Source of the DNA: Candidatus Effluviviaceae Genus IV sp.
GTDB taxonomy: Bacteria > Joyebacterota > Joyebacteria > Joyebacterales > Joyebacteraceae
Direction of reading: 5' to 3'
NCBI GenBank assembly: GCA_014728245.1
Contig: WJLY01000154.1
Span: 1 to 34,287 of the forward strand
Length of the DNA: 34,287 nt
Shown here: positions 6,137 to 34,122 of the stretch, piece by piece
How the letters are laid out: every line of letters starts with the position of its first letter
Position numbering within the stretch: the first letter of the stretch is position 1
Translations under genes and position numbers: made by a program
The notes under the pieces: generated by a model
Seen by the model: only the letters and a program-made list of their open reading frames with translations
Databases searched by the model: none
Told to the model about the DNA's origin: nothing

Positions 6137-8038
6137 TTGCCCGACCCTCTCAAACACATAATCCTCGGGACCGCCGGCCACATCGACCACGGCAAGACCG
6201 AGCTGGTGCGCGCTCTAACGGGCGTCGACACCGACCGTCTGCGCGAGGAGAAGGACCGCGGCATCTCGATCGAGCTGGGGTTCGCGCGGTTCGACCTGCC
6301 CTCCGGCACGGCTCTGGGTGTGATCGACGTCCCTGGCCACGAGCGTTTCGTCAAGACGATGCTCGCGGGGGCCGGCGGCATCGATCTTGTCCTCCTCGTG
6401 GTCGCCGCCGACGAGGGCGTCATGCCTCAGACCCGCGAGCACCTCGACATCATTGATCTTCTGGGCGTGCGCGCCGGCATCGTGGCGATCACGAAGACCG
6501 ATCTCGTCGGGAGCGAGGAAGTGGAATTCGCGCGGGCGGAGGTGGCCGAGCTCACGGCGGGCACGGCGCTTGAGGAGGCGCCGGTGGTCCCGGTGTCGGC
6601 TGTCACGCGGGAAGGCCTGGACGAGCTGACCGCGCGCCTCGAGGAGCTGGCGGGCGCCGTCGAGGAACGCGCATCCGCGGGACCGGCGAGACTGCCGGTC
6701 GACAGGGTCTTCTCGCTCCCGGGCCACGGGACGATCGTGACCGGGACGCTGTGGTCTGGAAGCATCGCCCCCGGCGACAGGCTCGCCGTCTATCCCTCCG
6801 GCGCGCAGGTGCGGGTGCGCAGCGTGCAGGTACACGACCGATCGGTCGACCGCGCGGAGGCGGGGCAGAGGACGGCGCTCGCCCTGGCGGGGGTCGACAA
6901 GGACTCGCTGTCGCGGGGCGACACGCTGGGAGCGGTCGGCGCGCTGCACGTGTCGCGGATGTTCGACGCCCGTCTCAGGCTGGTCGGCGGGGCGCGGCCG
7001 ATAGAGAACCGGACGCGCGTCCACCTCCACCTCGGGACGTCGCAGGCCCTTGCCAGGGTAGTCCTCCTCGAGACGGACGTGCTCCGGCCGGGTGAAGACG
7101 AACTGGTGCAGGTAAGGCTCGAGTCGCCGATCGTCGCCGAGCGCGATGACCTCTTCGTCATCCGCTCGTATTCGCCGGTGACCACGACCGGCGGAGGGCG
7201 CGTGCTCGACCCCGAGCCCAGGCGGCACAAGCGCATGCGGGAAGACGTCATCGAGGCGCTGACCGTGCTGGAAGAGGGGAGCTCCGAGGACGTTCTCCTG
7301 CAGGCGGTCGAGGAGGCCGGAGTCGAGGGGCTCGCGGTCTCCGACGTGACCGAGAAGCTGGGCCCGCAGGGGGAAGGGGTTGCGGAGGCGCTTGTACGGG
7401 ACGGGCGGATCCTCGAGATCGAGGGCCGGCTCCACACCGCCGGGCGCGTAGACGAGCTGAGCGACCGGATACGAGAGATCCTGTCTGAGCGAGCATCCGC
7501 CTCGCCGCTCGAGTGGGGCATGTCGGCCGAGGAGCTCCGGGGCACGCTCTCCAGGCGGATGGAGCGGAGGACGCTCGACGCCCTGCTCGCCCGGCTGGCC
7601 GAGCGTGGGGAGATCGCGCGCAGGGGCGATCTTGTGAGGCTGGGTCGTGACGAGGTGGCCCTGAACGAGCAGCAGGAGGAGCTCGCCGAGAGGATAGAGT
7701 CGCGTCTCAGGAAGGCGGGGCCGGCCGTGCCGTCGCTCGACGAACTCAGGTCGGAGATGGGTTCCCCGGATTTCGACGCGATCGTAAAGCTACTCTGCGA
7801 GACGGGCAGAATCGTGAAGGTGACCACAACACTCCTCTTCCACAGATCAGTCGTGGACGACGTTCGCGCCAGGGTCCTGCGGCGCCTGGATGAGCAGGCG
7901 ACGCTAGGCGTCCCGGAGTTCAAGGACATGGTCGGCGTGTCGCGCAAGTACGCGATACCGCTCCTGGAGTTCTTCGACAGAGAGGGCACGACGATGCGAT
8001 CGGGCAACGTTCGCGTCAAGGGACGGCAAGCGAGGTAG
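6137..8038 (+). CDS. selB: Selenocysteine-specific elongation factor SelB
   Basis: SelB is the GTPase that carries selenocysteinyl-tRNA to ribosomes paused at a UGA followed by a SECIS hairpin. The protein has 633 residues. The EF-Tu-like G domain is complete: GHIDHGKT (14-21), DVPGHE (64-69) and TKTD (119-122). Beta-barrel domains follow. The C-terminal third is a run of winged helices that bind SECIS RNA, ending in the typical [20 protein letters not shown] segment. The TTG start at 6137 has AGGAG six bases upstream. The C-terminal winged helices separate it from EF-Tu and IF2. Neither selA, selD nor the Sec tRNA gene was seen in this window, so they would have to lie elsewhere. Confidence 0.95.
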
Positions 8039-17631: not shown

Positions 17632-18387
17632 ATGCCAGTAGATCTCGAGAAGATACTGAGGCCGATCGACCGGCCCATGGCGCCGTATCCTCCCAAGCAC
17701 GTGACGCTGGCGAGCGGCGACGACATGGTCGTTCGCCAGGTCGGCAGGGACGACATTCCGAAGATACTCCCTCACGTCGCGCCGCTCATGTACGTCGAAC
17801 GCGACTTCTACGACTGCGTGGCGGCAAGGGTCTACGCTGAGCTGCTTGCTTACTACAGGCACCGGGTGCAGGATGAGTACGTGCTGATCGCGCAGGTGGA
17901 CGGCGAGCTGTGCGCGATCGTCAACGGCAGAATGGTCGACGAGAAGGTCGGCATGTCGCTTCACACTCTGGCGCTCAGGCGCGGGCTCAGGATCGGAGCG
18001 CACGCGTTCGCGGCCAAAATGGAATACCACATGGACATCCTGGGTCAGGAGGAAGTGCTCGTCGTTGCGGAGTCGCCGATCGGTTTCCGCAGGTGGATGA
18101 TAGAGTACGACCTCGAGAAGCGCTTCGATATTCCGCACGAGCTCGGGGGAGTGCCCTCCTACGCCCTCACGCGGGAGCTGTTCGAGCGGGCGCGGGGGAC
18201 CCTCGTGATCGGCAGAAGACCCGTTCCCGAAGCTCTCCTTTCGAAGGCGATGGAGGAGATACTGCCGCCCTCCGATCCGCCCCGGCCGCCTGACGACCTA
18301 CTCGCAGCGACGCGGTCGCAGTACGATCCCACCGGCACGGCCCTCATGCTCCAGAGATGGGTGGAGGAAGGGAAGGTGAAGGCATGA
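17632..18387 (+). CDS. Uncharacterised GNAT-like protein
   Basis: This is a 251-residue cytoplasmic protein that I do not recognise as a named family. The arrangement suggests an acyltransferase-like (GNAT) fold: VVRQVGRDDIPKILPHV near residue 30, a strand at DEYVLIAQVDGELCAIVNGR, then LHTLALRRGLRIGAHAFAAKMEYH, and VLVVAESPIGFRRWMI. This resembles the beta4-alpha3-beta5 region, but no clear acetyl-CoA loop (R/QxxGxG/A) can be pointed to. The C-terminal third is Pro-rich. AAGGAG lies seven bases before the ATG. Its last four bases overlap the start of the thiolase-like gene (ATGA), so the two are translationally coupled and probably work together, perhaps in acyl-CoA chemistry. Confidence 0.75.
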   Translation: MPVDLEKILRPIDRPMAPYPPKHVTLASGDDMVVRQVGRDDIPKILPHVAPLMYVERDFYDCVAARVYAELLAYYRHRVQDEYVLIAQVDGELCAIVNGRMVDEKVGMSLHTLALRRGLRIGAHAFAAKMEYHMDILGQEEVLVVAESPIGFRRWMIEYDLEKRFDIPHELGGVPSYALTRELFERARGTLVIGRRPVPEALLSKAMEEILPPSDPPRPPDDLLAATRSQYDPTGTALMLQRWVEEGKVKA

Positions 18388-19556
18388 GAGAAGTATACGT
18401 TGCGGGAATCGGGATCACATCGTTCTCGCGTCTCGAGTTCCCGCTCTCGGAGATAGCGGCATACCCGGTGATGATGGCGATGAAGGACTCGGGCCTCAAG
18501 GACATCGAGCATCTTTATGTCGCCAACATGGGAGGCGGCAGGGTCAATCATCAGACGGGCCTCGCCAGCGCCGTCGCGGATACCCTCAGCCTGACGCCCT
18601 CCGGCGCGGAGCTGATCGAGAACGGGCCGGCGTCGGGTGGCTCGGCCGTCAAGCAGGGGTTCATGGCGGTCGCCTCCGGAATGCACAACGTGGTGGCCGT
18701 AACAGGGGCCGAACGCATGCGCGAGGTCAACAACCTCGAGGCGACCGACCTCGTTGCGACGCTTACCCACCCGATCGCCGAATACATCTACGGGGTGACG
18801 CTCCCGTCGCTGGCCGGCATGTTCACGCGGCTCTACATGGACAGGTACGGAGTGACCGACCGTCATCTGGCGATGGTCGCGGTGAAGAACCAGAGACACG
18901 CCCTCCGGAACGAGTTCGCTCACATTCAGCAGGAGATCACCGTCGAGGGCATACTTGACTCGCCGGAGGCCATGACGAATAACCCCTACGTCGCTGCCCC
19001 CTTGAGGTTCTTCGACTGCTGCCCGGTCTCCGACGGCGGAGCCGCCGTGATACTCACGTCGAGGGAGGTAGCGGAGGCGACAGGCAGGCCGCTCGTGCGC
19101 CTCTCCGGAGTGGGACAGGCCAGCGACACTCACTGCGTGCACGAGCGCGAGGACCCGACGGAGCTTCTGGCCGTGAGGCGGGCGGCCGCCGGCGCGATGG
19201 AGATGGCGGGTGTCGAACCGTCCGACGTGGACGTTGCCGAGCTTCACGACGCGTTCACCATCCTCGAGATAGTCGAGAGCGAGGAGGCGGGGTTCTTTCC
19301 CAAAGGCGAGGGCCACCTGGCGCTCGAGCGGGGCGACACCGAGCTGGGTGGCCGACTTCCGATCAACGTGTCCGGAGGACTCAAGGGAAGAGGTCACCCC
19401 GTCGGCGCCACCGGCATCGCGCAGGTGTACGAGATCGCGCATCAACTGCGCGGCGAGGCCGGGGACAGGCAGGTCGAAGGCGCGCGAGTCGGATTCACGT
19501 GCAACTTCGGCGGGTTCGGGAACAACGTCGTTTGCATGGTGCTGGCTGGAGAGTGA
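18384..19556 (+). CDS. Thiolase-fold protein (SCP2/archaeal type) lacking the nucleophilic cysteine
   Basis: This is a 390-residue member of the thiolase superfamily, closest in layout to archaeal acetyl-CoA acetyltransferase/SCP2-type proteins, which form complexes with DUF35 proteins. VAGIGITSFSR opens the chain. The usual ENACASG nucleophile motif reads ENGPASGG, with proline at residue 82 where the catalytic Cys should be. H288 in ELHDAF and H338 in GRGHPVGATG are kept, and the C-terminus has CNFGGFGNNVVC (373-384). Without the cysteine it should not form the usual acyl-enzyme; it may decarboxylate, bind an acyl-CoA, or act as a structural partner. It overlaps the preceding gene by 4 bp and is followed by a DUF35 gene. 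Confidence 0.88.
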   Translation: MREVYVAGIGITSFSRLEFPLSEIAAYPVMMAMKDSGLKDIEHLYVANMGGGRVNHQTGLASAVADTLSLTPSGAELIENGPASGGSAVKQGFMAVASGMHNVVAVTGAERMREVNNLEATDLVATLTHPIAEYIYGVTLPSLAGMFTRLYMDRYGVTDRHLAMVAVKNQRHALRNEFAHIQQEITVEGILDSPEAMTNNPYVAAPLRFFDCCPVSDGGAAVILTSREVAEATGRPLVRLSGVGQASDTHCVHEREDPTELLAVRRAAAGAMEMAGVEPSDVDVAELHDAFTILEIVESEEAGFFPKGEGHLALERGDTELGGRLPINVSGGLKGRGHPVGATGIAQVYEIAHQLRGEAGDRQVEGARVGFTCNFGGFGNNVVCMVLAGE

Positions 19557-19679
19557 TCGTCGGCCGACACACCGGGCCGCTCGGGAAGTACCCGGAGACC
19601 GGGCATCGGGATGCTCGGGGGCCGCTCACAGACCGTTCTTCGGCCGCTCGTAGAGCACTCAGAGACCGAAGAGGATGAT

Positions 19680-20027
19680 ATGAAGAGAGAGATCTACGCG
19701 TACAGATGTCGCAGGTGCGGCGAGCTTCACTACCCGTACAGGATGGTCTGCAGGAAATGCCGCGAGAACGACCACAACGAGTTCGACCCGGAGCCGCTTC
19801 CGAGAGAGGGAATCCTCGTGACCCATACCGACCTCTACGCGCTGCCCGCCGTGTTCGAAATCCGAAAGCTCGGACTTGGAATCGTGGAGCTTTCCAACGG
19901 TGTCCGCATCACCGGGCAGCTCCGGGTGGAGGAGCCGAAGATCGGAATGAAGGTGCGAGGAGAGGTCGAGGTCGTCAGGAGCGAGATGTACAGCGACTAC
20001 TATGGAATGGTCTTCTACGAAGCTTGA
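19680..20027 (+). CDS. DUF35 zinc-ribbon/OB-fold protein
   Basis: This is a 115-residue protein with an N-terminal zinc ribbon (C10-x2-C13 and C24-x2-C27) and a C-terminal OB-fold. DUF35 proteins bind acyl-CoA and bridge thiolase and HMG-CoA synthase in the archaeal complex, and often sit next to SCP2-type thiolases, exactly as here. This protein is therefore the likely partner of the preceding thiolase-like protein. The ATG at 19680 has GAGG five bases upstream; longer versions would add a leader unlike the family. A 123-bp gap separates it from the thiolase gene. It contains no hairpin that I recognise, only three GGCCGCTC-like and AGACCG-like repeats. Confidence 0.92.
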   Translation: MKREIYAYRCRRCGELHYPYRMVCRKCRENDHNEFDPEPLPREGILVTHTDLYALPAVFEIRKLGLGIVELSNGVRITGQLRVEEPKIGMKVRGEVEVVRSEMYSDYYGMVFYEA

Positions 20028-20120: not shown

Positions 20121-21104
20121 TTGCGGTCTGAGAGGAACGACGTTCGACACGGGCGAGGGAGAGCCCAGGCCTCACCGGCGGTCGATGGGCCTCTTCGCCT
20201 GGTGAGCCGGGGCGACATGATCGCCGACGGGCTGTACCGGACGCACTCGAGTTTCCGGCGGGCCGCGAACATGACTGACGGCCGGGGCGTTGTCTCGATG
20301 GTAGAACTCGGAGTGGAACCCGGTCCCGTCAATCTCGTCATGAGGCATCTGAGTCCCGGAACCGTGCGTACGCTCCGGGTCGACGGCGCCTCGATCATCG
20401 TGAACGGAGCGGCGGTTGCCACGCAAGGCGCCCGTGACTACTCCTCGAAGATGGACGTCGGCGCGACAGACCCGGAGCCGGTTCACCGCGGGCTCCGGAT
20501 GCTTCGAAGACTATTGGCTCAGCGCGCGCCCGCTGAGAGCCTCGCGTTTCTCGTCGAGCCGTCACGGACGTCGGCGTTCAGGGGCGGGTTCCGGCGGGAG
20601 TTTGTGCGGCACATGAGGGCCTGTGCTGACGATATTCTGCACGGCGACCCGTTCCGCGGAGCAGCGCGCGCGAGCGGTTGCGGATTCGGGCTGACTCCGT
20701 CCGGTGACGACCTCGTGGTAGGCGTGCTTGTGGCGATGAACCTGGCGGAGCGCGTCGCCGGCGGCAGCCTTGCGGTCGAGAGACGGATGATCCGCCGGGC
20801 CGCCGGCACCGGAGGGCTCGTCAACGAGACCGCCCTTTGCCTAGCCGAGAGCGGCCGGGTGTTCGAGACCATGAAGGAGCTTCTGAGGGCGCTGACGAGG
20901 GACAACGCCTTCGATCTCAGTCGCGCCGTGGACCGTATCGTCGCCGTTGGAGAAACATCCGGCGCGGACACGACCGTCGGCCTCCTGCTTGGGACGGAGC
21001 GCTGGCTCTTCCGTCGTAACCGCCCGCGCGGGCTGCCGGGTCGTGACCGGCGCAATGGTGTCAAGAGCGACGCGGACCGCGCCGCCTGGGGAGAGTTCCT
21101 GTGA
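20121..21104 (+). CDS. DUF2877 (AllH-like) subunit of an oxamate-type carbamoyltransferase
   Basis: This is a 327-residue DUF2877 protein. The hallmark FGLTPSGDDLVVGVLVAMN and a C-terminal TSGADTTVGLLLG segment are present. In E. coli, AllH (DUF2877), AllF (FdrA) and AllG (DUF1116) are together needed for oxamate carbamoyltransferase, which converts oxalurate and phosphate to oxamate and carbamoyl phosphate during anaerobic allantoin use. The TTG start at 20121 has AGGAGGA ten bases upstream. A GTG at 20202 would give about 300 residues, nearer to E. coli AllH, so the N-terminus is uncertain. The gene overlaps fdrA by 4 bp. The Arg-rich C-terminal tail is not typical of the family. Confidence 0.88.
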   Translation: MRSERNDVRHGRGRAQASPAVDGPLRLVSRGDMIADGLYRTHSSFRRAANMTDGRGVVSMVELGVEPGPVNLVMRHLSPGTVRTLRVDGASIIVNGAAVATQGARDYSSKMDVGATDPEPVHRGLRMLRRLLAQRAPAESLAFLVEPSRTSAFRGGFRREFVRHMRACADDILHGDPFRGAARASGCGFGLTPSGDDLVVGVLVAMNLAERVAGGSLAVERRMIRRAAGTGGLVNETALCLAESGRVFETMKELLRALTRDNAFDLSRAVDRIVAVGETSGADTTVGLLLGTERWLFRRNRPRGLPGRDRRNGVKSDADRAAWGEFL

Positions 21105-22648
21105 TCCTGAAGACGGTTATCAGAAGCGGGGCGTACGCCGACTCGGTCACGCTGATGAAGGCCGCGCGCGAGCTCTCGGGCATGCCGGGCGTGGACGACG
21201 CGGCCGTCATCATGGGGACCGAAGAGAACAAGGCAATCCTGAGGGCGTCCGGTCTCCTCGATGAGTCCCTCGAGTCGGCGGGGCCGACCGACATGCTCGT
21301 GGCGGTTCGGGCGGCGGACGGTGAAGCGGCCGCGGGCGCCCTGTCGGCGGTAGACGAGCTCCTGACGGGCCAGCGCGGAGGCCCGGACAGAGAGAGCTCC
21401 CGCGCGCCCAGGAGCCTCGAGACCGCCCTCGCCGCTCATCCGGAGCTCAACCTGGCGCTGATCTCGGTGGCGGGCCGGTATGCGGGCGGCCTGGCGTGGG
21501 AGGCCCTCGAGAGGGACCTTCACGTAATGATCTTCTCGGACAACGTGCCCCTCGAAACGGAAGTCGCGCTCAAGCGGGAAGCGCACGAGAAAGGGCTGAT
21601 CGTGATGGGTCCGGACTGCGGCACAGCCATCGTGAACGGCGCGCCGCTCGGATTCGCCAACGTCGTATCGCGCGGGCCTGTCGGAATAGTGGCCGCGTCG
21701 GGAACCGGTCTTCAGGAGGTGAGCTGCCTTCTCTCCGAGAGCGGGGCCGGTATCTCACAGGCCATAGGCACAGGCAGTCGGGACGTGTCGGACGACGTGG
21801 GGGGTATCACGTTTCTCGACGCCATTGATGCGCTGGGCTGCGACGCTGACACTCAGGTGATCGTCCTGGTGTCGAAGCCGCCCGACCCGTCCGTTCACGA
21901 GAGGATACGGCGGGCCACCGGTGCGCTGGACAAGCCCGTCGTGTCGGTATTCCTGGGAACGGAGCCCGAGGGGCCCTACGACGCACGAACCCTGGCGGAA
22001 GCGGCGGCGAAGGCCTCGGACGTCGCGCTGGGGGGCGAGGCGGGGGCAGATTCGGGACGCGGAACGCTCTCTCGGCCGAAAGCGGACGAGAGGCGAGAAC
22101 GCGCCCGCGGGCTGGCTTCATCGGTCTCGGCCGGACGCAGATACTTGAGAGCGCTCATGAGCGGCGGCACGTTCGCGTCGGAGGCCGCGCTTGTATTGGG
22201 CGACATGGAGATCCCTGACCTGTGCGCCAACGTGAGGGGCGGTGGGGCAGCTCGGCTGGAGGACCCCCTCCGCTCCGTTGGGAACGCAGTCGTCGACATG
22301 GGCGCGGACGAGTTCACCGTCGGACGGCCGCATCCGATGATCGATTACTCGCTCCGTGTTGCGCGGATCGCGGAGGAAGCTAGAGATCCGCAGACCGCGG
22401 TCGTGCTTCTCGATGTCGTGCTCGGCTACGGGGCCCACCGCGATCCGGCCTCCGAGCTGGAGGGCGTTGTGCGCGATGTGTCATCCCGGGTCTGTGTTGT
22501 ATGCTCGGTCACCGGGACCGAGCGCGACCCGCAGGTCAGAAGCGTCGTCGAGAGACGACTGCGTAGTGCTGGAGCTTCCGTGATGCCCTCGAACGAAGCG
22601 GCGGCCGGGCTGGCGGGAGAAGTCGTCCGGATGCTGGGAGAACGCTGA
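21101..22648 (+). CDS. fdrA: FdrA (AllF-like) acyl-CoA synthetase-fold protein
   Basis: This 515-residue protein has the succinyl-CoA-synthetase-like folds of the FdrA family and is the AllF-like component of the proposed carbamoyltransferase. The most conserved stretch is clear: MGPDCGTAIVNGAPLGFANVV, GIVAASGTGLQEVSCLL, then AIGTGSRDVSDDVGGITFLDAI. A later part carries LVSKPPDPSVHERI, and near the end VVLLDVVLGYGAHRDPASEL, another FdrA hallmark. An Arg/Ala-rich linker (around residues 315-340) separates the two halves. The GTG start overlaps the DUF2877 stop (GTGA), and the stop shares one base with the DUF1116 start, so the three genes are translationally coupled. Confidence 0.93.
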   Translation: MILKTVIRSGAYADSVTLMKAARELSGMPGVDDAAVIMGTEENKAILRASGLLDESLESAGPTDMLVAVRAADGEAAAGALSAVDELLTGQRGGPDRESSRAPRSLETALAAHPELNLALISVAGRYAGGLAWEALERDLHVMIFSDNVPLETEVALKREAHEKGLIVMGPDCGTAIVNGAPLGFANVVSRGPVGIVAASGTGLQEVSCLLSESGAGISQAIGTGSRDVSDDVGGITFLDAIDALGCDADTQVIVLVSKPPDPSVHERIRRATGALDKPVVSVFLGTEPEGPYDARTLAEAAAKASDVALGGEAGADSGRGTLSRPKADERRERARGLASSVSAGRRYLRALMSGGTFASEAALVLGDMEIPDLCANVRGGGAARLEDPLRSVGNAVVDMGADEFTVGRPHPMIDYSLRVARIAEEARDPQTAVVLLDVVLGYGAHRDPASELEGVVRDVSSRVCVVCSVTGTERDPQVRSVVERRLRSAGASVMPSNEAAAGLAGEVVRMLGER

Positions 22649-24063
22649 TGTCGCTGAAGGACCTCTTCGGATCCGATCTAGGGGTCGTGAACGTCGGACT
22701 TGAGGCTTTTACTGAAGGGCTCGAGGCCGCCGGCGCGGCCCACGTGCACATGGACTGGCGTCCTCCGATCGACGTGTCCGCCGAGTCCCGGAGGACCATC
22801 AGCGAGAGGGCCGGCGTGATAGAAGAGGCGAATCGAAAGGCCGTCGGGATCATCATGCAGGCCGCTCCCGCTGTCGTCGCAACGGGAAGGGCGCTCGACG
22901 CGATACCCGGCATGCGAGAGGATCTCTTCCTGCACGCGGGGCCGCCGGTGGAATGGGAACGTATGTGCGGGCCGATGCGAGGGGCGGTCATCGGCGGGCT
23001 GATCTACGAGGGAAGAGCGGACACTGCTGAGGAGGCGGAGAGGCTGGCTGAGACGGGCCGGATCAGGTTCGAGCCCTGCCACGAGCACGGGACGGTGGGC
23101 CCGATGGCGGGCGTCGTCACGCCATCGATGCCCGTCTTCATCGTGAGGAACGAGGCGTTCGGTAACGAGGCTTATTGCACGATGAACGAGGGACTCGGCA
23201 AGGTGCTGCGCTACGGGGCCTTCGCGCCGGAGGTAATGGAACGACTGAACTGGATGCGCGACGTTCTGCACCCCGTGCTGGATGGAGCGATAAGGGCGAC
23301 GGGCGCGATCGACCTGAAGAACATCATTGCCCAAGCGCTGCACATGGGAGACGAGGTGCACAACCGCAACCGGGCGGCCACCTCCCTTCTGTACAGGGCC
23401 CTGGCGCCGGCCGTCGTGAGTACCTGCAGCGATCGATCGGAGGCGGCTCGGGTCCTCGAGTTCATCGACGGGAACGACCACTTCTTCCTCAATCTCTCGA
23501 TGCCGGCTTGCAAGGCGTCTCTCGACCCGGCCCGGGGCATCGAGGGGAGCAGCCTGGTCGTCGTGATGACCAGGAACGGGACCGACTTCGGTGTGCAGCT
23601 CTCAGGGACCGGCGACGAATGGTTCACGGGGCCGGCCGACGTCCCGGATGCTCTCTTCTTCCCCGGATATACACGGGACGACGCCAATCCCGACATCGGC
23701 GACAGCTCGATAACGGAGACCGCGGGTCTGGGCGGCTTCGCGATAGCCGCATCTCCGGCCATCGTCCAGTTCGTCGGCGGGACGACGAGCGACGCCATCG
23801 ACTACACGCTGGAGATGTACGAGATCACCGTCACGGAGAACGACGCGTACCAGATTCCCTATCTGGACTTCAGGGGCACACCGACGGGCATAGACGTCGT
23901 CAAGGTCGTGGAGAAGAACATACTCCCGTTCATAGACACGGGCGTGGCCCACAGAGAACCGGGCGTCGGTCAGGTCGGCGCGGGGGTCCTCCGGGCATCG
24001 TTACAGCCGTTCGTCGGCGCGTACGAGGGACTGGCCGAGCGCCTGAAGGCGGCGGGCGGCTGA
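22648..24063 (+). CDS. DUF1116 (AllG/YlbE-like) protein
   Basis: This is a 471-residue DUF1116 protein, the third part of the AllFGH-like set. The core GPMAGVVTPSMPVFIVRNEA with GNEAYCTMNEGLGKVLRYGAF is typical, as is the helix with DLKNIIAQALHMGDEVHNRN. With FdrA and DUF2877 it is expected to catalyse phosphorolysis or synthesis of an N-carbamoyl amide in the cytoplasm. Carbamoyl phosphate would normally then be used by a carbamate kinase to make ATP; no such gene is in the window. The ATG overlaps the fdrA stop (TGATG). The last residues are Ala/Gly-rich. The next gene starts 161 bp later, and nothing convincing was seen in that gap. Confidence 0.92.
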   Translation: MSLKDLFGSDLGVVNVGLEAFTEGLEAAGAAHVHMDWRPPIDVSAESRRTISERAGVIEEANRKAVGIIMQAAPAVVATGRALDAIPGMREDLFLHAGPPVEWERMCGPMRGAVIGGLIYEGRADTAEEAERLAETGRIRFEPCHEHGTVGPMAGVVTPSMPVFIVRNEAFGNEAYCTMNEGLGKVLRYGAFAPEVMERLNWMRDVLHPVLDGAIRATGAIDLKNIIAQALHMGDEVHNRNRAATSLLYRALAPAVVSTCSDRSEAARVLEFIDGNDHFFLNLSMPACKASLDPARGIEGSSLVVVMTRNGTDFGVQLSGTGDEWFTGPADVPDALFFPGYTRDDANPDIGDSSITETAGLGGFAIAASPAIVQFVGGTTSDAIDYTLEMYEITVTENDAYQIPYLDFRGTPTGIDVVKVVEKNILPFIDTGVAHREPGVGQVGAGVLRASLQPFVGAYEGLAERLKAAGG

Positions 24064-24224
24064 GTCAGGCATACGAGAAAGGCGGGAAGCCGGGCAGCGT
24101 ACCAGGAGGCGAGCCGCGGATCGCGCAACCGGACGCGAGCGCGAGCCGCGCGGAAGCGGGCCTGCCGTGGCGCTGCCGGGAGAACCAGGTCAAGTAGCTT
24201 CGCTCTCCAGAGCCGGAGGTGGGT

Positions 24225-25043
24225 ATGAAGATAGAGAAGTTCCTCGAGTTCATGAACGAAATAAGGATGTACGATCTTACGCAGAGACTCTCGATACACA
24301 CACCCCCGTGGCCCAGCTACATGCCGATGGGATTGCAGTACTTCAAGCGAATCGCGGGAGCCCACATGGGCCAGGGCGCCAACGGTCAGATCATGACCAC
24401 GAGCAACCACGTCGGGACGCACATGGACGGTGAGATACACTTCCACGGGAGCGGGCGCTCGATCGGAGACGTTCCCCTCGACGAGTGGGTCGGTCCGGGC
24501 GTCGTAGTGGACATATCCGACGCCGTGGAGGACTACGGCCTCTACTCTCCGGAGATGATAGAGGACCGCGTGGAGGTCCGTGACGGCGACATTCTTATCA
24601 TCAACACCGGTTATCACAAGTACGCTTGGGACCAGAAGCGCTGCGACGAGGTCCGATACTTCGTCAAGCACCCGGGCCCGGGCCCCGAGTTCCACAAGTG
24701 GGCGCTGAAGAGAAAGCTCAACTGGATAGGCGTCGACTGCGGCAGCGCGGACCATCCGATGAACACGATCATCCGCGACTGGCACCCGGCGCTCTTCGAG
24801 AAAGCCGAGGCGAAGCTCCGGAGCGAACGCGGCAAGAGCTGGGACGAGGTCTTCCCGCCGGAGACCTACTACCAGGTGATGCACCTGAAGCTCTTCCCTA
24901 AGAAGATCGTGCACGCGGAGAACCTCGGAGGGGAGATCGATAAGGTGGGCAACAAGAGGTGCTGGATAGGGTGCTTCCCTCTTCGGGGCATAGAGCTCGA
25001 ATCGTCGATGTGCCGCATCGTGGCGATGCTTCCGCCGGAGTAG
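24225..25043 (+). CDS. Cyclase-family (kynurenine formamidase-like) metal-dependent hydrolase
   Basis: This 272-residue member of the cyclase family belongs to the group that includes kynurenine formamidase and isatin hydrolase, Mn/Zn enzymes that hydrolyse amide bonds, often in rings. The metal motif HxGTHxD is present as NHVGTHMDGEIHF, followed by a second histidine cluster. DLTQRLSIHTPPWPSY opens the fold, GVDCGSADHPMNT lies near the middle, and HAENLGGEIDKVGNKR near the end. The ATG at 24225 is preferred because GGAGGTG (24215-24221) precedes it; the GTG at 24219 lies inside that ribosome-binding site. Its place between the DUF1116 gene and a molybdenum hydroxylase suggests that it opens a ring produced by the hydroxylase. 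The substrate is not known. Confidence 0.9.
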   Translation: MKIEKFLEFMNEIRMYDLTQRLSIHTPPWPSYMPMGLQYFKRIAGAHMGQGANGQIMTTSNHVGTHMDGEIHFHGSGRSIGDVPLDEWVGPGVVVDISDAVEDYGLYSPEMIEDRVEVRDGDILIINTGYHKYAWDQKRCDEVRYFVKHPGPGPEFHKWALKRKLNWIGVDCGSADHPMNTIIRDWHPALFEKAEAKLRSERGKSWDEVFPPETYYQVMHLKLFPKKIVHAENLGGEIDKVGNKRCWIGCFPLRGIELESSMCRIVAMLPPE

Positions 25044-25200
25044 CGCATCCGGAGGACGAAGCCGCAAGGGGAACCACGCGGCCGCCCGAACGACCGAAGT
25101 CGCGGGCGCACGGCGTCGCCGGTCACAAGACTACCGACGCGGTCCCTGTTCCCCGATTGGGCCGCGGGGCGGATGCAAGCCGTTCGATGAAGGAGCCGCC

Positions 25201-26091
25201 ATGTCGATACCGCACGAGTTCGACTACACGAGACCTGGGTCGTTGAGCGAGGCGCTGGCCGTTCTGGGCGAATCCGGCGCGGACGCTCGCCCGCTGGCCG
25301 GCGGCACCGATCTCCTGCCGCGTCTCCGCGACGGCCTCGAGCATCCCTCCGTGCTCGTCGACCTCAAGGCGATACGGGAGCTGGCAGGCATAAGAGCGGA
25401 AGAAGACGCGGTCACTCTGGGCGCGCTGGCGACCTTCACGGACCTCGTAGAGTCACAGGAAGTGGCCGATTCGCTCCCTGTCATGGTAGAGATGGCGCGC
25501 TTGATGGGTTCCGTAGGGATCCGCAACCGTGCCACGATCGTGGGGAACATCTGCTCGGGCGTCCCGTCCTGCGACAGCGGTCCGGTGCTGCTGGTCTGCG
25601 ACGCGCGCGTTCACGTGGCTGGACCCGAGGGAGCGCGCGAGATCCCGCTCTCGGAGTGGTTCGTGGCGCCGCGGAGCACGTCGCTCGGACGGTCCGAGAT
25701 CGTGACAGGTGTTTCTCTTCAACGGCCGGGACCGGGCCACGGGGGGTGCTTCGTCAAGCTGAGGCGTAGCAGCGGCGAGGATCTGGCCCAGGCTTCGGTC
25801 GCGGCGCTGGCGCTCCCCGACGGCTCGTACCGCGTGGCCTTCGGCGCCGTGGCGCCGACGCCGGTGAGGGCCGGGAGGATCGAGGAGGCGCTGCGCGGCC
25901 GCGCGATCGATGGTGACGCTCTTGTGGAAGTCCGCGGACTCGTGTCCGAGGAGACATCGCCCATCTGCGACATCCGCGCGAGTCGGGAGTACCGGGAGCA
26001 CATGCTGCCCGTGATGCTCGAACGAGCTCTGCTGGCCGCCGCGTCGAGGCGCGACGGCGAGGGCCCACCGTACGGCGAGGCGCTGCTGTAG
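25201..26091 (+). CDS. Molybdenum hydroxylase FAD-binding subunit (CoxM/XdhB type)
   Basis: This is the 296-residue FAD subunit of a xanthine dehydrogenase-family enzyme. It passes electrons from the iron-sulfur subunit to its acceptor. FAD-binding features include PLAGGTDLLPRLRDG (about 35-49) and RNRATIVGNICSGVPSCDSGPVLL (about 107-130), the latter matching the usual RNxxTIGGN...AD.xP pattern, with Cys-Asp in place of Ala-Asp. The C-terminal CO dehydrogenase flavoprotein domain follows. AAGGAG lies five bases before the ATG. It is the first of three genes in the order M-S-L and is separated from the cyclase gene by 157 bp in which I see nothing definite. Confidence 0.93.
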   Translation: MSIPHEFDYTRPGSLSEALAVLGESGADARPLAGGTDLLPRLRDGLEHPSVLVDLKAIRELAGIRAEEDAVTLGALATFTDLVESQEVADSLPVMVEMARLMGSVGIRNRATIVGNICSGVPSCDSGPVLLVCDARVHVAGPEGAREIPLSEWFVAPRSTSLGRSEIVTGVSLQRPGPGHGGCFVKLRRSSGEDLAQASVAALALPDGSYRVAFGAVAPTPVRAGRIEEALRGRAIDGDALVEVRGLVSEETSPICDIRASREYREHMLPVMLERALLAAASRRDGEGPPYGEALL

Positions 26092-26103
26092 GAGATCTGT
26101 GTC

Positions 26104-26583
26104 ATGGCCAGAGAGATCACGCTCAACGTGAACGGCGAGGAGTGGACCGTCTCGGTTGCACCGAACGAGACGCTGCTGGAGGTGCTTCGCGATCGCATCG
26201 GCTTGAAGAGCCCCAAGATCGGGTGCGAGCGCGGGGACTGCGGCAGCTGTACGGTAATACTCGACGGCAGGACCGTGAGGAGTTGCCTGGTTCTGGCCGT
26301 CGAGGCCGACGGGGCGGGCGTTCTTACGGTGGAAGGCCTTTCGAGAGACGGCCTTACCGAGCTACAGCAGTCGTTCATTGACCACAATTCGTTCCAGTGC
26401 GGGTTCTGTGCTCCCGGGATCATCCTGACCGCGTCGGAGCTTCTTGCGAAGAACCCTCATCCGACGGAGCACGAGGTGAAGGAGGCGCTCGCCGGGAATC
26501 TCTGCCGATGCACTGGTTACACACCCATCGTGGAGGCCGTGCTCGACGTAGCGGGCAGGCGGAAGGCGGATGACGATGGCTGA
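26104..26583 (+). CDS. Molybdenum hydroxylase 2Fe-2S subunit (CoxS/XdhC type)
   Basis: This 159-residue small subunit carries two [2Fe-2S] clusters. The plant-ferredoxin-type cluster uses C41, C46, C49 and C61 (motif GCERGDCGSC). The second uses C99, C102, C134 and C136 (QCGFC and NLCRC). All eight ligands are present, so electron transfer from the molybdenum centre to FAD should be intact. GGAG lies eleven bases or so before the ATG. It follows the FAD subunit by 12 bp and overlaps the large subunit by 14 bp, so the stoichiometric complex is made from one transcript. Confidence 0.96.
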   Translation: MAREITLNVNGEEWTVSVAPNETLLEVLRDRIGLKSPKIGCERGDCGSCTVILDGRTVRSCLVLAVEADGAGVLTVEGLSRDGLTELQQSFIDHNSFQCGFCAPGIILTASELLAKNPHPTEHEVKEALAGNLCRCTGYTPIVEAVLDVAGRRKADDDG

Positions 26584-28960
26584 TCTCAAGCGCGCGGAGA
26601 AACCCGATCTCAAGTACGTCGGAAGATCCGCCACTCGAATCGACGGCGTTCCCAAGGTCTCCGGAAGCGCGACGTTCGTGGACGACATCGACTTCGGCCC
26701 GGGTCTCCTGCACGCGGCGGTCGTGGAGAGCCCGCACGCCCATGCTCGTATTCTCTCGATAGACAAGAGCGAGGCGGAGGCTCTTCCCGGCGTCGTCCGC
26801 GTCGTCACCGGCGAGGACTTCCCGTTCAGGTTCGGGCTCTACATGAAGGATCGCCACATCTTCGCGATGGACAGAGTCAGGTTCGTCGGCGAGCAGGTGG
26901 CGGCCGTCGTGGCGCGGGATCGGAGGACGGCGGAACGCGCCGCGGCGCTTGTAAGGGTCGATTATGATGAGCTGCCGGCGCTCTTCGACCCGGAGGAGGC
27001 GGTGGGAGAGAGGTCGTGTCTCCTGCATCCCGACATGTGCGAGTGCGAGCGAGTGCCCTGGTTCTTCCCGGAGGAGGGGACCAACGTAGCGCACTGCCGG
27101 AGAACGCGGAGGGGCGACGTGGAGGCGGGTTTCCAGGAAGCCGACATCGTGCTCGAGGACACCTACCGCGTGCCCCGTTACTCGCACTGCGCGATCGAGC
27201 CGCACGTGGTCGTGGGGCTGCATGACCACTCCGGAAGGCTCACGCTCTGGTCCGCTTCCCAGTCGCCTCATACTCAGCGGAACCTCTTCGCGGAGACGCT
27301 GGCCCCGCTGGGCCTGACCCACAAGGACATACGCGTGGTCACACCGTTCGTCGGCGGGGGGTTCGGCGGCAAGGCCGGCGTCACGATGGAGATACTGGGG
27401 GCGGCGCTCGCGATGGCCGTCAAGGGACGGCCGGTCAAGCTCCGCTGGACCCGCGAGCAGGAGTTCTACAACACGTACCAGCGCCAGGCCGTGGTGGCGC
27501 GTCTCAAGATCGGAGCGCGCAATGACGGCACGCTGACCGCGATCGAGCACACCCTCTACTGGGACGCCGGCGCCTACGTCGAATACGGCGCGAACGTCGT
27601 GAACGCCGTCGGGCTCTCCGCCACCGGACCGTACAGGGTACCGAACGTCAAGATCGACTCGTTCTGCATATACACCAACCTGCCCCCGGGCGGGCCCTAC
27701 AGAGGTTTCGGCTACTCCGAGTTCCACTTCGGACTCGAGTCCCACATGACCCGGATCGCGCACGAACTGGGCATCGACGCGGTCGAGTTTCGCAAGCGGA
27801 ACGCCATCGCCGAGGGCGACACGCTACCGTACGGGGCATCCATGAACCCCAGCGGACTAGTGGAGGCGATAGACAGGGCCGCGGAGGCTATCGGGTGGGG
27901 CGAACCTGGCGAGCCAACGGACTCCGGGAAGGTCGTTGGCAAGGGTGTGGCGCTCATGTGGAAAGCGCCCGCCATGCCTCCCAACGCGAGCTCGGCCGCG
28001 TTCCTCAAGTTCAGCGAGGACGGAAGCGTCAACATCACAGTCTCGGGGATGGAGATAGGGCAGGGGTACCTGACAGTGATGGCTCAGATAGCGGCCGAGG
28101 TCCTGTCGGTTCCGCCCGAGAGAATCCGTGTCGAGACGCCCGACACGGACCGCACTCCCTACGAGTGGCAGACGGTCGGTTCGCACGTTACGTGGGGCTG
28201 CGGGAACGCCGTCCGCGACGCGGCCCTCGAGGCGCGCGAGAGGATCTTCGGAGTGGTGCATCGAGCAAGGGGATTCCCCGTCGACTCGCTCTACCTGGAG
28301 AATGAGGAGGTCAGGAGCCACGACGACCCGGGATTCGGGCTTGCCCTTCGTAACTTCGTGATCTCCGGAATACAGATGGACGACGGGACGTTCCGCGGCG
28401 GCCCGATCATGGGGAGCGGGATGTTCATGCCGGAGTTCACCTCGGCGCTCTCCGATCCGGACACCAGCCAGGGCGGCCATCCCAACGTGCACTACACTGT
28501 CGGAGCGGCCGGGATCGTGCTCGAGGTCGACCCGGAGACCGGCAAGATGCAGGTTCTGAGGACCGCACTGGCAGTGGATGTAGGCAAGGCCATAAACCCG
28601 GATCTCGTGGAGGGCCAGATCAAAGGCGGTCTCCTCCAGGGGCTGGCTACCGTCCTGTATGAGGACATGCGCTTCGACGAGCGAGGCCGGCTCTTGAATC
28701 CCAACTTCACGGACTACAAGATCCCCACAGCCATGGACGTCCCGCTTGAGACGATCCCCATCATAATCGAGGTGCCGCAGCCGGACGGTCCCTTCGGCGC
28801 AAGGGGCGTCGGAGAGCACACGATGATCCCGGCGGCGCCGATGGTGGCTAACGCTCTCGAGGATGCACTGGGTGTCCGCATCAAGTCGATGCCGATCACG
28901 GCCGAGAAGGTCGCGCTGGCAGTCCGTGAGTCCAGGTCGGGGCGGGTTGACAACGCGTAG
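26570..28960 (+). CDS. Molybdenum hydroxylase large (Mo-cofactor) subunit, xanthine dehydrogenase family
   Basis: This 796-residue catalytic subunit hydroxylates a C-H bond next to nitrogen in a heterocycle or aldehyde, with water as the oxygen source. An aldehyde oxidase/xanthine dehydrogenase a/b hammerhead domain (about 15-125) is followed by Mo-binding domains with GGGFGGK (262-268), PYRGFGYSE (about 379-387), EIGQGYLTVMAQIAAEVL (about 496-513), and the catalytic glutamate E749 in GARGVGEHTM. The CO-dehydrogenase loop AYRCSFR is absent, so it is not a CO dehydrogenase despite the Cox-like gene order. Two close starts exist, ATG at 26570 and ATG at 26576; either fits. It overlaps the 2Fe-2S gene. 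The substrate is unknown; purine, pyrimidine and nicotinate-type rings are possible. Confidence 0.93.
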   Translation: MTMADLKRAEKPDLKYVGRSATRIDGVPKVSGSATFVDDIDFGPGLLHAAVVESPHAHARILSIDKSEAEALPGVVRVVTGEDFPFRFGLYMKDRHIFAMDRVRFVGEQVAAVVARDRRTAERAAALVRVDYDELPALFDPEEAVGERSCLLHPDMCECERVPWFFPEEGTNVAHCRRTRRGDVEAGFQEADIVLEDTYRVPRYSHCAIEPHVVVGLHDHSGRLTLWSASQSPHTQRNLFAETLAPLGLTHKDIRVVTPFVGGGFGGKAGVTMEILGAALAMAVKGRPVKLRWTREQEFYNTYQRQAVVARLKIGARNDGTLTAIEHTLYWDAGAYVEYGANVVNAVGLSATGPYRVPNVKIDSFCIYTNLPPGGPYRGFGYSEFHFGLESHMTRIAHELGIDAVEFRKRNAIAEGDTLPYGASMNPSGLVEAIDRAAEAIGWGEPGEPTDSGKVVGKGVALMWKAPAMPPNASSAAFLKFSEDGSVNITVSGMEIGQGYLTVMAQIAAEVLSVPPERIRVETPDTDRTPYEWQTVGSHVTWGCGNAVRDAALEARERIFGVVHRARGFPVDSLYLENEEVRSHDDPGFGLALRNFVISGIQMDDGTFRGGPIMGSGMFMPEFTSALSDPDTSQGGHPNVHYTVGAAGIVLEVDPETGKMQVLRTALAVDVGKAINPDLVEGQIKGGLLQGLATVLYEDMRFDERGRLLNPNFTDYKIPTAMDVPLETIPIIIEVPQPDGPFGARGVGEHTMIPAAPMVANALEDALGVRIKSMPITAEKVALAVRESRSGRVDNA

Positions 28961-29078: not shown

Positions 29079-31280
29079 CTACCTGACCATGACCATCTTG
29101 CGTCTGGTTGTCGTTTCGCCCGCCTCCAGCAACAGGAAGTAGACGCCGGAGCCCAGCTCGTTGCCTCGGTCGTCCCGCCCGCGCCACGTGACCGTATGCC
29201 GGCCCGCGGCGTGCGGACCGTCCGCGAGGACCGACACCAGTTTGCCGGACGCGTCGTAGACCCTGACGCTCGCCCGGCACGGTTCGGGAAGCGAGAATGA
29301 GACGATTCCCTCGCGTTGGAACGGGTTCGGGACGGAGAGCGTCAGGCCGGACGCGGACGGCGTCTGCTCGTCGGGGATGGCGGTCCCGTATGAGCTCCGG
29401 AGCTCGAACGCCAGATCGATCGACTCGCCATGCCAGCTGTGGCCTTCCGGATACACCAGCTCACCCCAGTTTCCGTAGTAGGGTTCCTCGCCCGAGCCCC
29501 ATACCGCATCGTCGTTCCAGTTGAACTCGGTCGTCTTCCAGCCGAACCGAGCGTCCGGGTCGTCGAGAGGCGTAGCCTGGACGTCGAGCCAGTAGATCAC
29601 CGGAGAGCCCGGCGTACCGACCTGGTGGAAGGCCTCATCGAAAGGAACGGGGAACGTGTACTTCCAGCAGGTCGTGTCCGCGGGGAAGGCGAAGGTCTGG
29701 GGCGGATCTAGCCATCCCTCGGCGATTCCTTCCGCCCAGACATCGACTGCGTAGTCGTCAGGAAGGAAGTCGCGGACCCACAGGACCTCGCCCGGCGTGC
29801 TGTAGCCGGTCGGGCTCTCTTCGACGGGCACGTCTTCGTGGATGCTGAGTGTGAATTTGGCCATCCTCGGGTCTCCCTGAGGCAGCATGTCGCCGAGCCA
29901 GGAGCCCCAGATCGTGATCTCATCGACGCGGCCCGGGGACTCGCACAGCCAGTCGTCGGCCAACAGGTAGGGCGCCGTCGCGTTCACGTCGATACCCAGG
30001 CATCCGAGATGCGGCTCCTGCCGCCACTTCCAGCCCTCGCCCCCCTGTATCTCGACGGCGTGGTCCTCCACCTCTCCGTCCGGAGCCCATCCGATGTAGC
30101 TGAGCCCTCCCATGCTGGAAAGCCGGAACCGCCCGAAGGTCGGTCCTGGATCCGAGTCGAGTGGAACTGAGAAGTGGAGTTTCGTGATGACACCTGGCTC
30201 GACCCAGTGGGACTCTGCGATCCGGTCCCACGGCTCCACCCAGCTTCCGTCGCGTCCGAAGTCGATCCACGCGTCCACATAGCCTCCGACGGTGGCCTCG
30301 GTCATGTCGATCGCGACGTAGGAGGGGCTTCCCTGGACGAGAGGCGCCCAGAACAGCACCCCGTCCTCATCGTCGGCGCAGCTGATGTCGTCGCCGAGCG
30401 CGTCGGGGTCCGGCATGCCGTTGGCGTCGCCGTCGATCTGGTCGCCCATGAGGAAGCCTGGCACCACGGTGTGGTTCGCGCCGCCGTCGGCATAGAGCGT
30501 GGGGTAGGGTTCCGGAGCATCGCCCCAGTCCTCGACGGTCTCGTCTCCGATCACGAAAGCGAGATCGATGGAGTCGCCGGCGGAGGGATGTCCCGATGGG
30601 TATCGGAGCTCGTCCCAGTAGCCGTTGTAGGGCTCGTATCCGGTCGCCCACGTCGTGTTGTCGTTCCAGTGATCGGTGGAGCTTCTCCATCCGAACAGCG
30701 CCTGGGAGTCGTCTGGGAAGGCCTGCACAACCAGCCAGTAGACGATGGGCTGACCCGGCGCGCCCTGCTGCTGGAAAGCGGCACCCTCGTTGAACCAGAA
30801 GTTGTACTGCCACAGGTCCGTGTCGATTCCGGGCCAGTACGTCGCCGGGGGATCCAGCCAGCCGGCTTCGAGCCCGCTGTCGTATCTCCTCACCGTATAC
30901 CTGCTGGGGTAGACGTTGGCGTACCAGAGCGGGTCGCCGGGCATGCTGTATCCTGTCGGGCTCTGAGACGCCGGAATGTCGGCGTGTATACCGACCATGA
31001 AGTGGACGCCGGTCGGATCGTCTCCGAAAGGCAGGTAATCATTCCTCCAGGCGCCCCATATGTGGATCTTCCGGATGTATCCCACTTCCTCGCAGAGGAA
31101 GTCGTCGGCGATCATGTAGGCGCCGAACTCCGAAGGTGTAGCGTTCACGTCGATGGCCGTCGGCTCAGGGTCCGGCATCTGCACCCACTTGGCCGGGTCA
31201 CCGATGTCCCAGTGCCCCTGCGCTGAGACCGACATCAACTGCAGCAGGATGAGCGCAATGAGCCAGCTTCTCCGCTTCAT
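29079..31280 (-). CDS. Secreted GEVED-domain protein with duplicated module and FlgD-like C-terminus
   Basis: This is a 733-residue exported protein without a recognised catalytic site. A signal peptide (residues 1-20, KRRSWLIALILLQLMSVSA) is followed by a roughly 220-residue module and a GEVED domain (about 248-410; EDWGDAPEPYPT at the start and GEVEDHAVE at the end). A second copy of the first module follows (about 410-635; AYMIADDFLCEE corresponds to PYLLADDWLCES, and SPTGYSMPGDPLW to SPTGYSTPGEVLW). A roughly 80-residue C-terminal FlgD-like beta module of the kind used for type IX or related sorting ends the protein (RVYDASGKLVSVLADG; GSGVYFLLLEAGE). The start at 31280 has AAGGAG nine bases upstream on the minus strand; a longer start at 31457 would bury the signal peptide. 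The role is probably at the cell surface. Confidence 0.85.
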   Translation of the reverse strand: MKRRSWLIALILLQLMSVSAQGHWDIGDPAKWVQMPDPEPTAIDVNATPSEFGAYMIADDFLCEEVGYIRKIHIWGAWRNDYLPFGDDPTGVHFMVGIHADIPASQSPTGYSMPGDPLWYANVYPSRYTVRRYDSGLEAGWLDPPATYWPGIDTDLWQYNFWFNEGAAFQQQGAPGQPIVYWLVVQAFPDDSQALFGWRSSTDHWNDNTTWATGYEPYNGYWDELRYPSGHPSAGDSIDLAFVIGDETVEDWGDAPEPYPTLYADGGANHTVVPGFLMGDQIDGDANGMPDPDALGDDISCADDEDGVLFWAPLVQGSPSYVAIDMTEATVGGYVDAWIDFGRDGSWVEPWDRIAESHWVEPGVITKLHFSVPLDSDPGPTFGRFRLSSMGGLSYIGWAPDGEVEDHAVEIQGGEGWKWRQEPHLGCLGIDVNATAPYLLADDWLCESPGRVDEITIWGSWLGDMLPQGDPRMAKFTLSIHEDVPVEESPTGYSTPGEVLWVRDFLPDDYAVDVWAEGIAEGWLDPPQTFAFPADTTCWKYTFPVPFDEAFHQVGTPGSPVIYWLDVQATPLDDPDARFGWKTTEFNWNDDAVWGSGEEPYYGNWGELVYPEGHSWHGESIDLAFELRSSYGTAIPDEQTPSASGLTLSVPNPFQREGIVSFSLPEPCRASVRVYDASGKLVSVLADGPHAAGRHTVTWRGRDDRGNELGSGVYFLLLEAGETTTRRKMVMVR
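29085..29279 (-). repeat. Near-identical sorting-module segment, copy 1
   Basis: This 195-nt segment aligns without gaps to 31569-31763, with about 20 differences counted by eye (roughly 90% identity). Both copies encode the C-terminal FlgD-like module. The rest of the two proteins is unrelated, so the module has been duplicated or kept alike by gene conversion. Confidence 0.85.
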
Positions 31281-31434
31281 GATCGCACGCTCCTTCACGG
31301 CGGGACGGCTCGGTCGACTTGCGACCGACAGGTCCGACAGCGCCATCGCTTCATGAGGGATTCCGGCGGAGTTCGACGCTGCGCGTCTCTCGGCGGTGGC
31401 GACGAGGCCTTGGTTTTTGGCAGGTAACGCAGTT

Positions 31435-31464
31435 ATAGTACAACAACTGACCGGCATTCGTCAA
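31435..31464 (-). promoter_or_regulatory. Sigma-70-like promoter of the GEVED-protein gene
   Basis: On the minus strand, TTGACG (31464-31459) is followed after 18 bp by TACTAT (31440-31435). This predicts a leader of about 150 nt before the start at 31280. An alternative -10, TATAAC (31437-31432), would have 21-bp spacing. Confidence 0.45.
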
Positions 31465-34031: not shown

Positions 34032-34093
34032 CTCCGTCTCCTTCCTGAGTGCTCTCCGGAGGGATTCACCAGGTTCTGATATGCCTACTCTCC

Positions 34094-34122
34094 ATGATAC
34101 CACCGGAACTGCGTCAAATCAA
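34094..34122 (-). promoter_or_regulatory. Sigma-70-like promoter of the papain-family gene
   Basis: On the minus strand, TTGATT (34122-34117) and TATCAT (34099-34094) are separated by exactly 17 bp. Transcription would start about 55 nt before the ATG at 34031. The base composition here is lower in GC than the surroundings. Beyond it (34123-34287) I see no supported gene. Confidence 0.55.

Follow-up and report, generated by a model that had tools for sequence, protein, structure and literature searches.

A conserved operon from Candidatus Eisenbacteria to Cloacimonadota may encode an energy-saving oxidative pathway for uracil

Introduction

That pyrimidines can be oxidised to barbiturate has long been known in biochemistry, and the oxidative pyrimidine pathway of Rhodococcus proceeds through uracil dehydrogenase, barbiturase and ureidomalonase; to our knowledge no gene has been assigned to uracil dehydrogenase, the first enzyme of the route. 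A second point of reference is the oxamic transcarbamylase of the anaerobic allantoin pathway of Escherichia coli, which is encoded with a carbamate kinase as allFGHK and interconverts oxalurate and carbamoyl phosphate plus oxamate (PMC11326118). Here we analyse an operon that joins an AllFGH-type carbamoyltransferase to a cyclase-family hydrolase and a molybdenum hydroxylase, found in a stretch of 34,287 nucleotides (positions 1 to 34,287 of contig WJLY01000154.1, assembly GCA_014728245.1) from Candidatus Effluviviaceae Genus IV sp.; the whole stretch is referred to as the window, and coordinates are forward-strand positions. We propose, with a probability of about 0.6, that this operon encodes an oxidative, energy-saving catabolism of uracil, by way of barbiturate and ureidomalonate, to malonamate and carbamoyl phosphate.

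The operon has the same three subunit families as allFGHK and a similar proposed chemistry, the phosphorolysis of an acyl-urea to carbamoyl phosphate, but differs in lacking allantoin genes and a carbamate kinase and in being joined to the hydrolase and the hydroxylase. With the Rhodococcus pathway it would have the intermediates uracil, barbiturate and ureidomalonate in common; here, however, the ring opener is of the cyclase family, not the AtzD family, a phosphorolytic AllFGH would save energy in place of the hydrolytic ureidomalonase, and the cluster occurs mainly in uncultured, sediment-type bacteria. The E. coli yge/xdhD cluster for reductive urate degradation, with the YgeW carbamoyltransferase and the YqeA carbamate kinase, is alike in its phosphorolytic release of a carbamoyl group for adenosine triphosphate (ATP) and in its xanthine dehydrogenase (XDH)-family enzyme, whereas YgeW is an unrelated carbamoyltransferase, the substrate is a purine and the ring is opened reductively. 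Isatin hydrolase and kynurenine formamidase (PF04199) have the cyclase fold and the HxGTHxDxxxHF motif in common with the operon's hydrolase, and isatin hydrolase likewise opens a cyclic amide, but identity in structural alignments is just 18-19%.

Plasmid clusters of Citrobacter and Aminobacter likewise combine DUF2877-FdrA-DUF1116 with a cyclic-amide opener, although theirs is unrelated, a molybdenum hydroxylase is lacking and the Citrobacter permease is XanQ-like. We found AllFGH, carbamate kinase and an AtzD-family ring-opening amidohydrolase together on Citrobacter freundii pE51_002 and Aminobacter pSR8, where the substrate is perhaps cyanurate or barbiturate; many conjugative plasmids of Enterobacterales carry related DUF1116 genes. 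The literature on these families treats AllFGH in allantoin and oxalurate contexts; in its open-licence part we found no paper linking AllFGH, a cyclase-family hydrolase and a molybdenum hydroxylase (an earlier description elsewhere is possible), and no description of a phosphorolytic ureidomalonate step. What is new is how these known families are combined and how widely the combination occurs.

Results and discussion

The original prediction described seven co-directional genes at 20121-28960, and all seven open reading frames (ORFs) were found there on the + strand, with Pfam and NCBIfam confirming the families assigned to them: AllH, FdrA, AllG, the cyclase and three hydroxylase subunits. 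As a unit, though, the seven are incomplete, the operon starting earlier with three genes that had been missed (17632-20027). Because this upstream trio is co-directional with the seven-gene core, closely spaced (a 4-bp overlap, then gaps of 93-123 bp) and kept in order with it in relatives, we read the whole as a ten-gene operon, in which the molybdenum hydroxylase genes encode flavin adenine dinucleotide (FAD), iron-sulphur (FeS) and molybdenum-cofactor (Mo) subunits:

17632-18387, + strand: GNAT-fold protein of 251 amino acids, operon gene 1 (AlphaFold and Foldseek)
18384-19556, + strand: thiolase-like protein (Pfam Thiolase_C_1/Thiolase_N; alignments)
19680-20027, + strand: DUF35/ChsH2-type zinc-ribbon and OB-fold partner of the thiolase-like protein (Pfam zf-ChsH2 and OB_ChsH2_C; adjoins the thiolase-like gene in relatives)
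20121-21104, + strand: AllH-like (DUF2877) carbamoyltransferase subunit (PF11392, E 4.7e-20; 30% identity to E. coli YlbF)
21101-22648, + strand: FdrA/AllF-like carbamoyltransferase subunit (NCBIfam FdrA over cut-off; 40% identity to E. coli FdrA)
22648-24063, + strand: AllG-like (DUF1116) carbamoyltransferase subunit (PF06545, E 5e-101; 45% identity to E. coli YlbE)
24219-25043, + strand: cyclase-family metal-dependent hydrolase, proposed ring opener (PF04199, E 6e-34)
25201-26091, + strand: molybdenum hydroxylase FAD subunit (PF00941, PF03450)
26104-26583, + strand: molybdenum hydroxylase [2Fe-2S] subunit (PF01799, PF00111)
26570-28960, + strand: molybdenum hydroxylase Mo-cofactor subunit, proposed uracil dehydrogenase (PF02738, PF20256, PF01315)

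Within the core, which is ordered AllH-FdrA-AllG-cyclase-FAD-FeS-Mo, AllH overlaps FdrA (by 4 bp), FdrA overlaps AllG and FeS overlaps Mo, the widest gap being 157 bp. The thiolase-like start at 18384 was picked because it overlaps the stop of the preceding gene (the longest ORF begins at 18357), and that of the OB-fold gene follows the relatives (longest ORF from 19611). A scan for promoters and terminators gave no signal above shuffled sequences, and no RNA families were found in the window. An allantoin pathway was rejected, since the E. coli allB, allC, allD and allE proteins have no match among the proteins of the window operon.

In the pathway that we propose, the three-subunit molybdenum hydroxylase would put a water-derived oxygen on C6 of uracil to give barbiturate; the cyclase-family hydrolase, replacing the AtzD-family barbiturase, would open one ring amide of barbiturate to give ureidomalonate; and the AllH-FdrA-AllG complex, by analogy with the E. 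coli enzyme, would phosphorolyse ureidomalonate to malonamate and carbamoyl phosphate, from which a carbamate kinase encoded elsewhere could make ATP. Ureidomalonate (HOOC-CH2-CO-NH-CO-NH2) differs by one carbon from its homologue oxalurate, on which E. coli AllFGH has been shown to act. In many relatives an amidase would then convert malonamate to malonate, and a family III coenzyme A (CoA)-transferase would convert malonate to malonyl-CoA, and the best-equipped operons hold a plausible gene for every step. The idea of a single N-heterocycle pathway that hydroxylates, opens and phosphorolyses a ring, with uracil as one option, had been raised from the seven genes; gene context supports it without proving it, and on the same grounds the substrate is probably uracil.

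All three subunits of an AllFGH-type oxamic transcarbamylase are present and adjacent, FdrA carrying Ligase_CoA/CoA_binding domains and scoring 475 bits against the cut-off of 433 for NCBIfam acyl-CoA synthetase FdrA. In the cyclase, the metal-binding motif is invariant across 46 aligned sequences and the predicted structure resembles isatin hydrolase and kynurenine formamidase, while the protein falls below the arylformamidase (kynurenine formamidase) equivalog TIGR03035 (52.3 bits against a cut-off of 223.05). An AtzD-family barbiturase was found neither in the operon, by Pfam, nor in any of 40 genomes, in a search in which no positive control gave a hit. The description of the hydroxylase as a xanthine dehydrogenase-family enzyme holds at the level of the molybdenum hydroxylase (XDH) superfamily, given its FAD, 2x[2Fe-2S] and Mo-cofactor subunits and the catalytic Glu of GVGE, but not below it: the enzyme lies outside the NCBIfam xanthine dehydrogenase and 4-hydroxybenzoyl-CoA reductase equivalogs, all far under cut-off (Mo subunit, 499.5 bits against 780 for XdhA_XDHase and 509 against 994.55 for 4hydrxCoA_A). 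The motifs GGGFGGKAG, YRGFGYSE and GVGEH of the Mo subunit are common to nearly all relatives, and the E802-equivalent of its active site is Ala here and Gln in E. coli XdhA; active-site residues alone do not give the substrate.

The cluster is deeply conserved. The host group comprises 20 genomes, the named records being Candidatus Eisenbacteria; 14 of them have an AllG homologue, and relatives in the phylum with sufficiently long contigs retain the order GNAT-thiolase-OB-AllH-FdrA-AllG-cyclase-FAD-FeS-Mo, with the cyclase and the thiolase-like protein mostly 81-90% identical and AllH merely 35-46%. When 84,980 species genomes were searched with the cyclase alignment, the scan yielded 298 confirmed loci, the best 80 of which (73-86% identity) belong to Eisenbacteria, Zixibacteria, Elusimicrobia, Kiritimatiellae, Verrucomicrobia, Cloacimonadota, Bacteroidota, Ignavibacteria, KSB1, Bdellovibrionota, Myxococcota, Spirochaetota, Aminicenantes and others. 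The families stay together, and more than ten phyla have the seven-gene core with its gene order unchanged. Neighbours were counted at 100 loci in and beyond the phylum, with loci having enough flanking sequence as denominators: AllG is present at 86 of the 91 loci with 1.6 kb upstream of the cyclase and FdrA at 72 of the 75 with 3.5 kb, and downstream of the cyclase lie the FAD subunit (80/89) and the Mo subunit (55/66). Cluster-type cyclases of Cloacimonadota (n = 30) have AllG beside 29 and the FAD subunit beside 30, and none of 19 distant Spirochaetota cyclases, taken as a control, has these neighbours. With the order kept across the host phylum and more than ten phyla and the paralogous cyclases lacking the neighbours, the recurrence is more than chance. 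The balance tips slightly towards a widespread uracil-oxidation pathway, from Eisenbacteria to Cloacimonadota, Elusimicrobiota and Bdellovibrionota, with genes for a uracil dehydrogenase, for an isatin-hydrolase-like cyclase acting as barbiturase and for an energy-saving phosphorolysis of ureidomalonate.

Separation of the hydroxylase from the carbamoyltransferase set in relatives had been named beforehand as an outcome that would speak against one pathway. What we found is that the two halves occur together at most loci of these phyla and that their protein distances are correlated (cyclase-Mo r 0.90, AllG-Mo 0.80, AllG-FdrA 0.77, none reached in 500 permutations), a correlation to which shared host ancestry can contribute. 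It is therefore very improbable that the carbamoyltransferase-cyclase half and the hydroxylase half act on different substrates and merely lie in one operon, even though FdrA-AllG-cyclase stand without a hydroxylase in the flanks read at two spirochaete loci (L190 and L193) and haloarchaeal cyclases occur without AllFGH. The cyclase tree follows the phyla imperfectly, with 20 label changes where 13 would be the fewest; transfer could produce this pattern, which is not proof of it. In several Eisenbacteria a gene that we take, from its motif HPFxDGNGRTAR, to encode a Fic protein lies between FeS and Mo (L022:12515-13564, L024:9223-10287 and L025:8660-9709).

The substrate type is suggested by recurrent neighbours, for which flanking ORFs were clustered and then named. 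In Cloacimonadota the operon often runs on to CoA-transferase III, amidase and a UraA-type permease, and a permease of this type also lies inside Spirochaetota operons. These permeases share 36-38% identity with E. coli UraA and about 27% with XanQ, their best NCBIfam model is uracil permease, and they have Phe, Glu and Glu at UraA positions F73, E241 and E290, which we take to be uracil-binding, where XanQ has Gln at the last (transmembrane helix 10). At the spirochaete locus L190, one strand encodes amidase, FdrA, AllG, cyclase, a methylmalonate-semialdehyde-dehydrogenase-family protein (MMSDH), a hydantoinase/carbamoylase (named by family), a PydX-like protein, PreA, dihydropyrimidinase and an aminotransferase, with MMSDH, PreA and dihydropyrimidinase over curated cut-offs. 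Because of these neighbours (the UraA-type permease, the reductive pyrimidine operon at L190 and the CoA-transferase with amidase), a pyrimidine is the most likely type of substrate. The MMSDH gene would also suit the same chemistry on another pyrimidine (thymine, cytosine-derived or 5-substituted uracils), leading to substituted ureidomalonates and methylmalonate-type products, and acceptance of thymine alongside uracil is common among enzymes that degrade pyrimidines; the cluster, however, has no methyl-group-specific gene and uracil is the commoner base in RNA-rich nucleic acid debris, so we consider these substrates unlikely.

The tails of the operon, which the original prediction overlooked, bear on a further alternative. 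Among 42 loci with full flanks, 15 carry CoA-transferase and amidase, 1 the amidase alone and 0 the CoA-transferase alone; the thiolase-like module (11 of the 42) and the CoA-transferase (15) are mutually exclusive, with a Fisher p of 0.003 that is optimistic given the related genomes among the loci. Bdellovibrionales have an isochorismatase-family protein at the operon edge and, in two loci, a nitrilase-family protein, possibly alternative amide hydrolases. The CoA-transferase scores best against CoA:oxalate CoA-transferase, as would befit a route in which the hydroxylase converts hydantoin to parabanate, the cyclase yields oxalurate, AllFGH gives oxamate and carbamoyl phosphate, and amidase and CoA-transferase lead to oxalyl-CoA. 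Oxalurate is moreover the only demonstrated AllFGH substrate, and a 1965 paper cited in PMC3364942 says in its title that parabanic acid induces oxamate transcarbamylase. Set against the uracil-type permease, the pyrimidine operon context and the absence of oxalyl-CoA decarboxylase from 30 of 30 cluster genomes, in a search in which the E. coli positive control was detected, this route appears unlikely.

A permease and a carbamate kinase had been expected nearby; the former is indeed found in relatives' operons, while the latter is present in most genomes but not beside the operon. Of 40 cluster genomes, most encode a carbamate kinase that passes the curated cut-off or comes near it (26 of 40 pass, against 2 of 14 controls), and apart from one fragment, at L191, no homologue was found in the operon of the window or, in relatives, within 10 kb. 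The host's carbamate kinase (48% to YqeA) lies on another contig, in a separate purine-type operon (G000:C9:22000-37152) together with an XDH FAD subunit, YgeW-like carbamoyltransferases (two in tandem, 31%), adenine deaminase, a major facilitator superfamily transporter and Bmp/ABC nucleoside-type uptake. That operon resembles the pathway by which E. coli degrades urate phosphorolytically (PMC12507026), and the host thus seems to break down purines by way of carbamoyl phosphate. The ten-gene operon is therefore free for another base and would be the pyrimidine counterpart.

This makes decidedly unlikely a purine route, in which the hydroxylase would act on hypoxanthine or xanthine, the cyclase would open the pyrimidine half-ring and AllFGH would take the carbamoyl group off an imidazole ureide. 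Such a route would suit the superfamily of the hydroxylase, the AllFGH genes beside xanthine-type permeases in Peptoclostridium and the xanthine permeases of haloarchaeal cyclase islands, but the operon permeases have the UraA-type Glu in helix 10, not the XanQ Gln, the Mo subunit scores far under the XDH equivalogs, and no imidazole-degrading genes were among the recurrent neighbours identified.

Several observations weigh against the proposed oxidation of uracil. All of its reactions are predicted from gene context; neither a permease nor a carbamate kinase lies beside the window operon; L190 has no Mo hydroxylase in the 19 kb read; and the CoA-transferase would suit an oxalate route too. 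In the host and about half its phylum (11/20) another contig encodes a PreA/PydA-like protein, accompanied by a PydX-like partner in both loci inspected, and this protein could mean that uracil reduction is already present in the host, or could act on another ring; Clostridioides difficile UacX acts on a ring other than uracil (PMC12507026). PreA is over its cut-off in just 9 of 40 cluster genomes, and the reductive route is therefore no alternative in most. Haloarchaeal islands containing the cyclase are of mixed purine and pyrimidine type and lend weak support, because their Mo subunits are 27-33% identical and xanthine permeases are present. Lastly, the window operon has no obvious gene for the steps from malonamate to malonyl-CoA, its phylum having the GNAT, thiolase-like and OB module in place of amidase and CoA-transferase, and this uncertain thiolase-like tail, to which no reaction is assigned, forms with the host's PydX-PydA-like pair the chief weak point of the reading.

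In the thiolase-like protein, the position of the catalytic Cys is Pro (ENGPASG) in the window and in 18 of 18 aligned relatives, with the HDAF and GHP histidines retained, and an ordinary thiolase was rejected on account of this replacement. Steroid aldolases (Ltp2/Sal with DUF35) have the catalytic motifs YDHF/YDCY (PMC12329534), and the analogy was not adopted for the thiolase-like and DUF35 pair, which has HDAF instead. The GNAT-fold protein has no Pfam match; its AlphaFold model (predicted local distance difference test score 84) had solely GNAT acyltransferases among the Foldseek hits listed, on which ground a role as malonyl-CoA decarboxylase was rejected, and a search of 30 genomes, in which no control gave a hit, did not find PF05292. 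It is 65-81% identical in 14 relatives and 35-52% in four more, and lies upstream of the thiolase-like gene in most.

Were the oxidative route to uracil's carbamoyl phosphate true, hundreds of uncultured genomes would gain a source of carbon, nitrogen and ATP in nucleic acid debris, the ring's urea carbon being saved as carbamoyl phosphate for ATP, and AllFGH would be a general acyl-urea phosphorylase, not an allantoin enzyme. The orphan steps would then be testable with a handful of recombinant proteins.

Cyclase homologues (about 49%) also lie in nucleobase islands, mostly on haloarchaeal plasmids (L208-L218), with a distant Mo hydroxylase and NCS2 permeases, and in some cases with cytosine deaminase/permease, CoA-transferase and thiolase-like and OB genes; in one haloarchaeal island cytosine deaminase and cytosine permease adjoin the cyclase. 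These islands are a possible hydrolytic variant of the pathway. Actinobacterial loci of Nonomuraea and Embleya have AllFGH-type genes divergent from a PucR regulator, with a UraA-type permease and Mo hydroxylase, and were rejected as further examples because the cyclase is lacking nearby.

Elsewhere in the window, a SelB-family elongation factor lies upstream of the operon (6137-8038), and the - strand at 29079-31457 and 31563-34103 encodes two large proteins, probably secreted, that carry FlgD-type Ig domains at the C terminus, one with DUF7901/GEVED and the other with papain-like and lectin-like domains.

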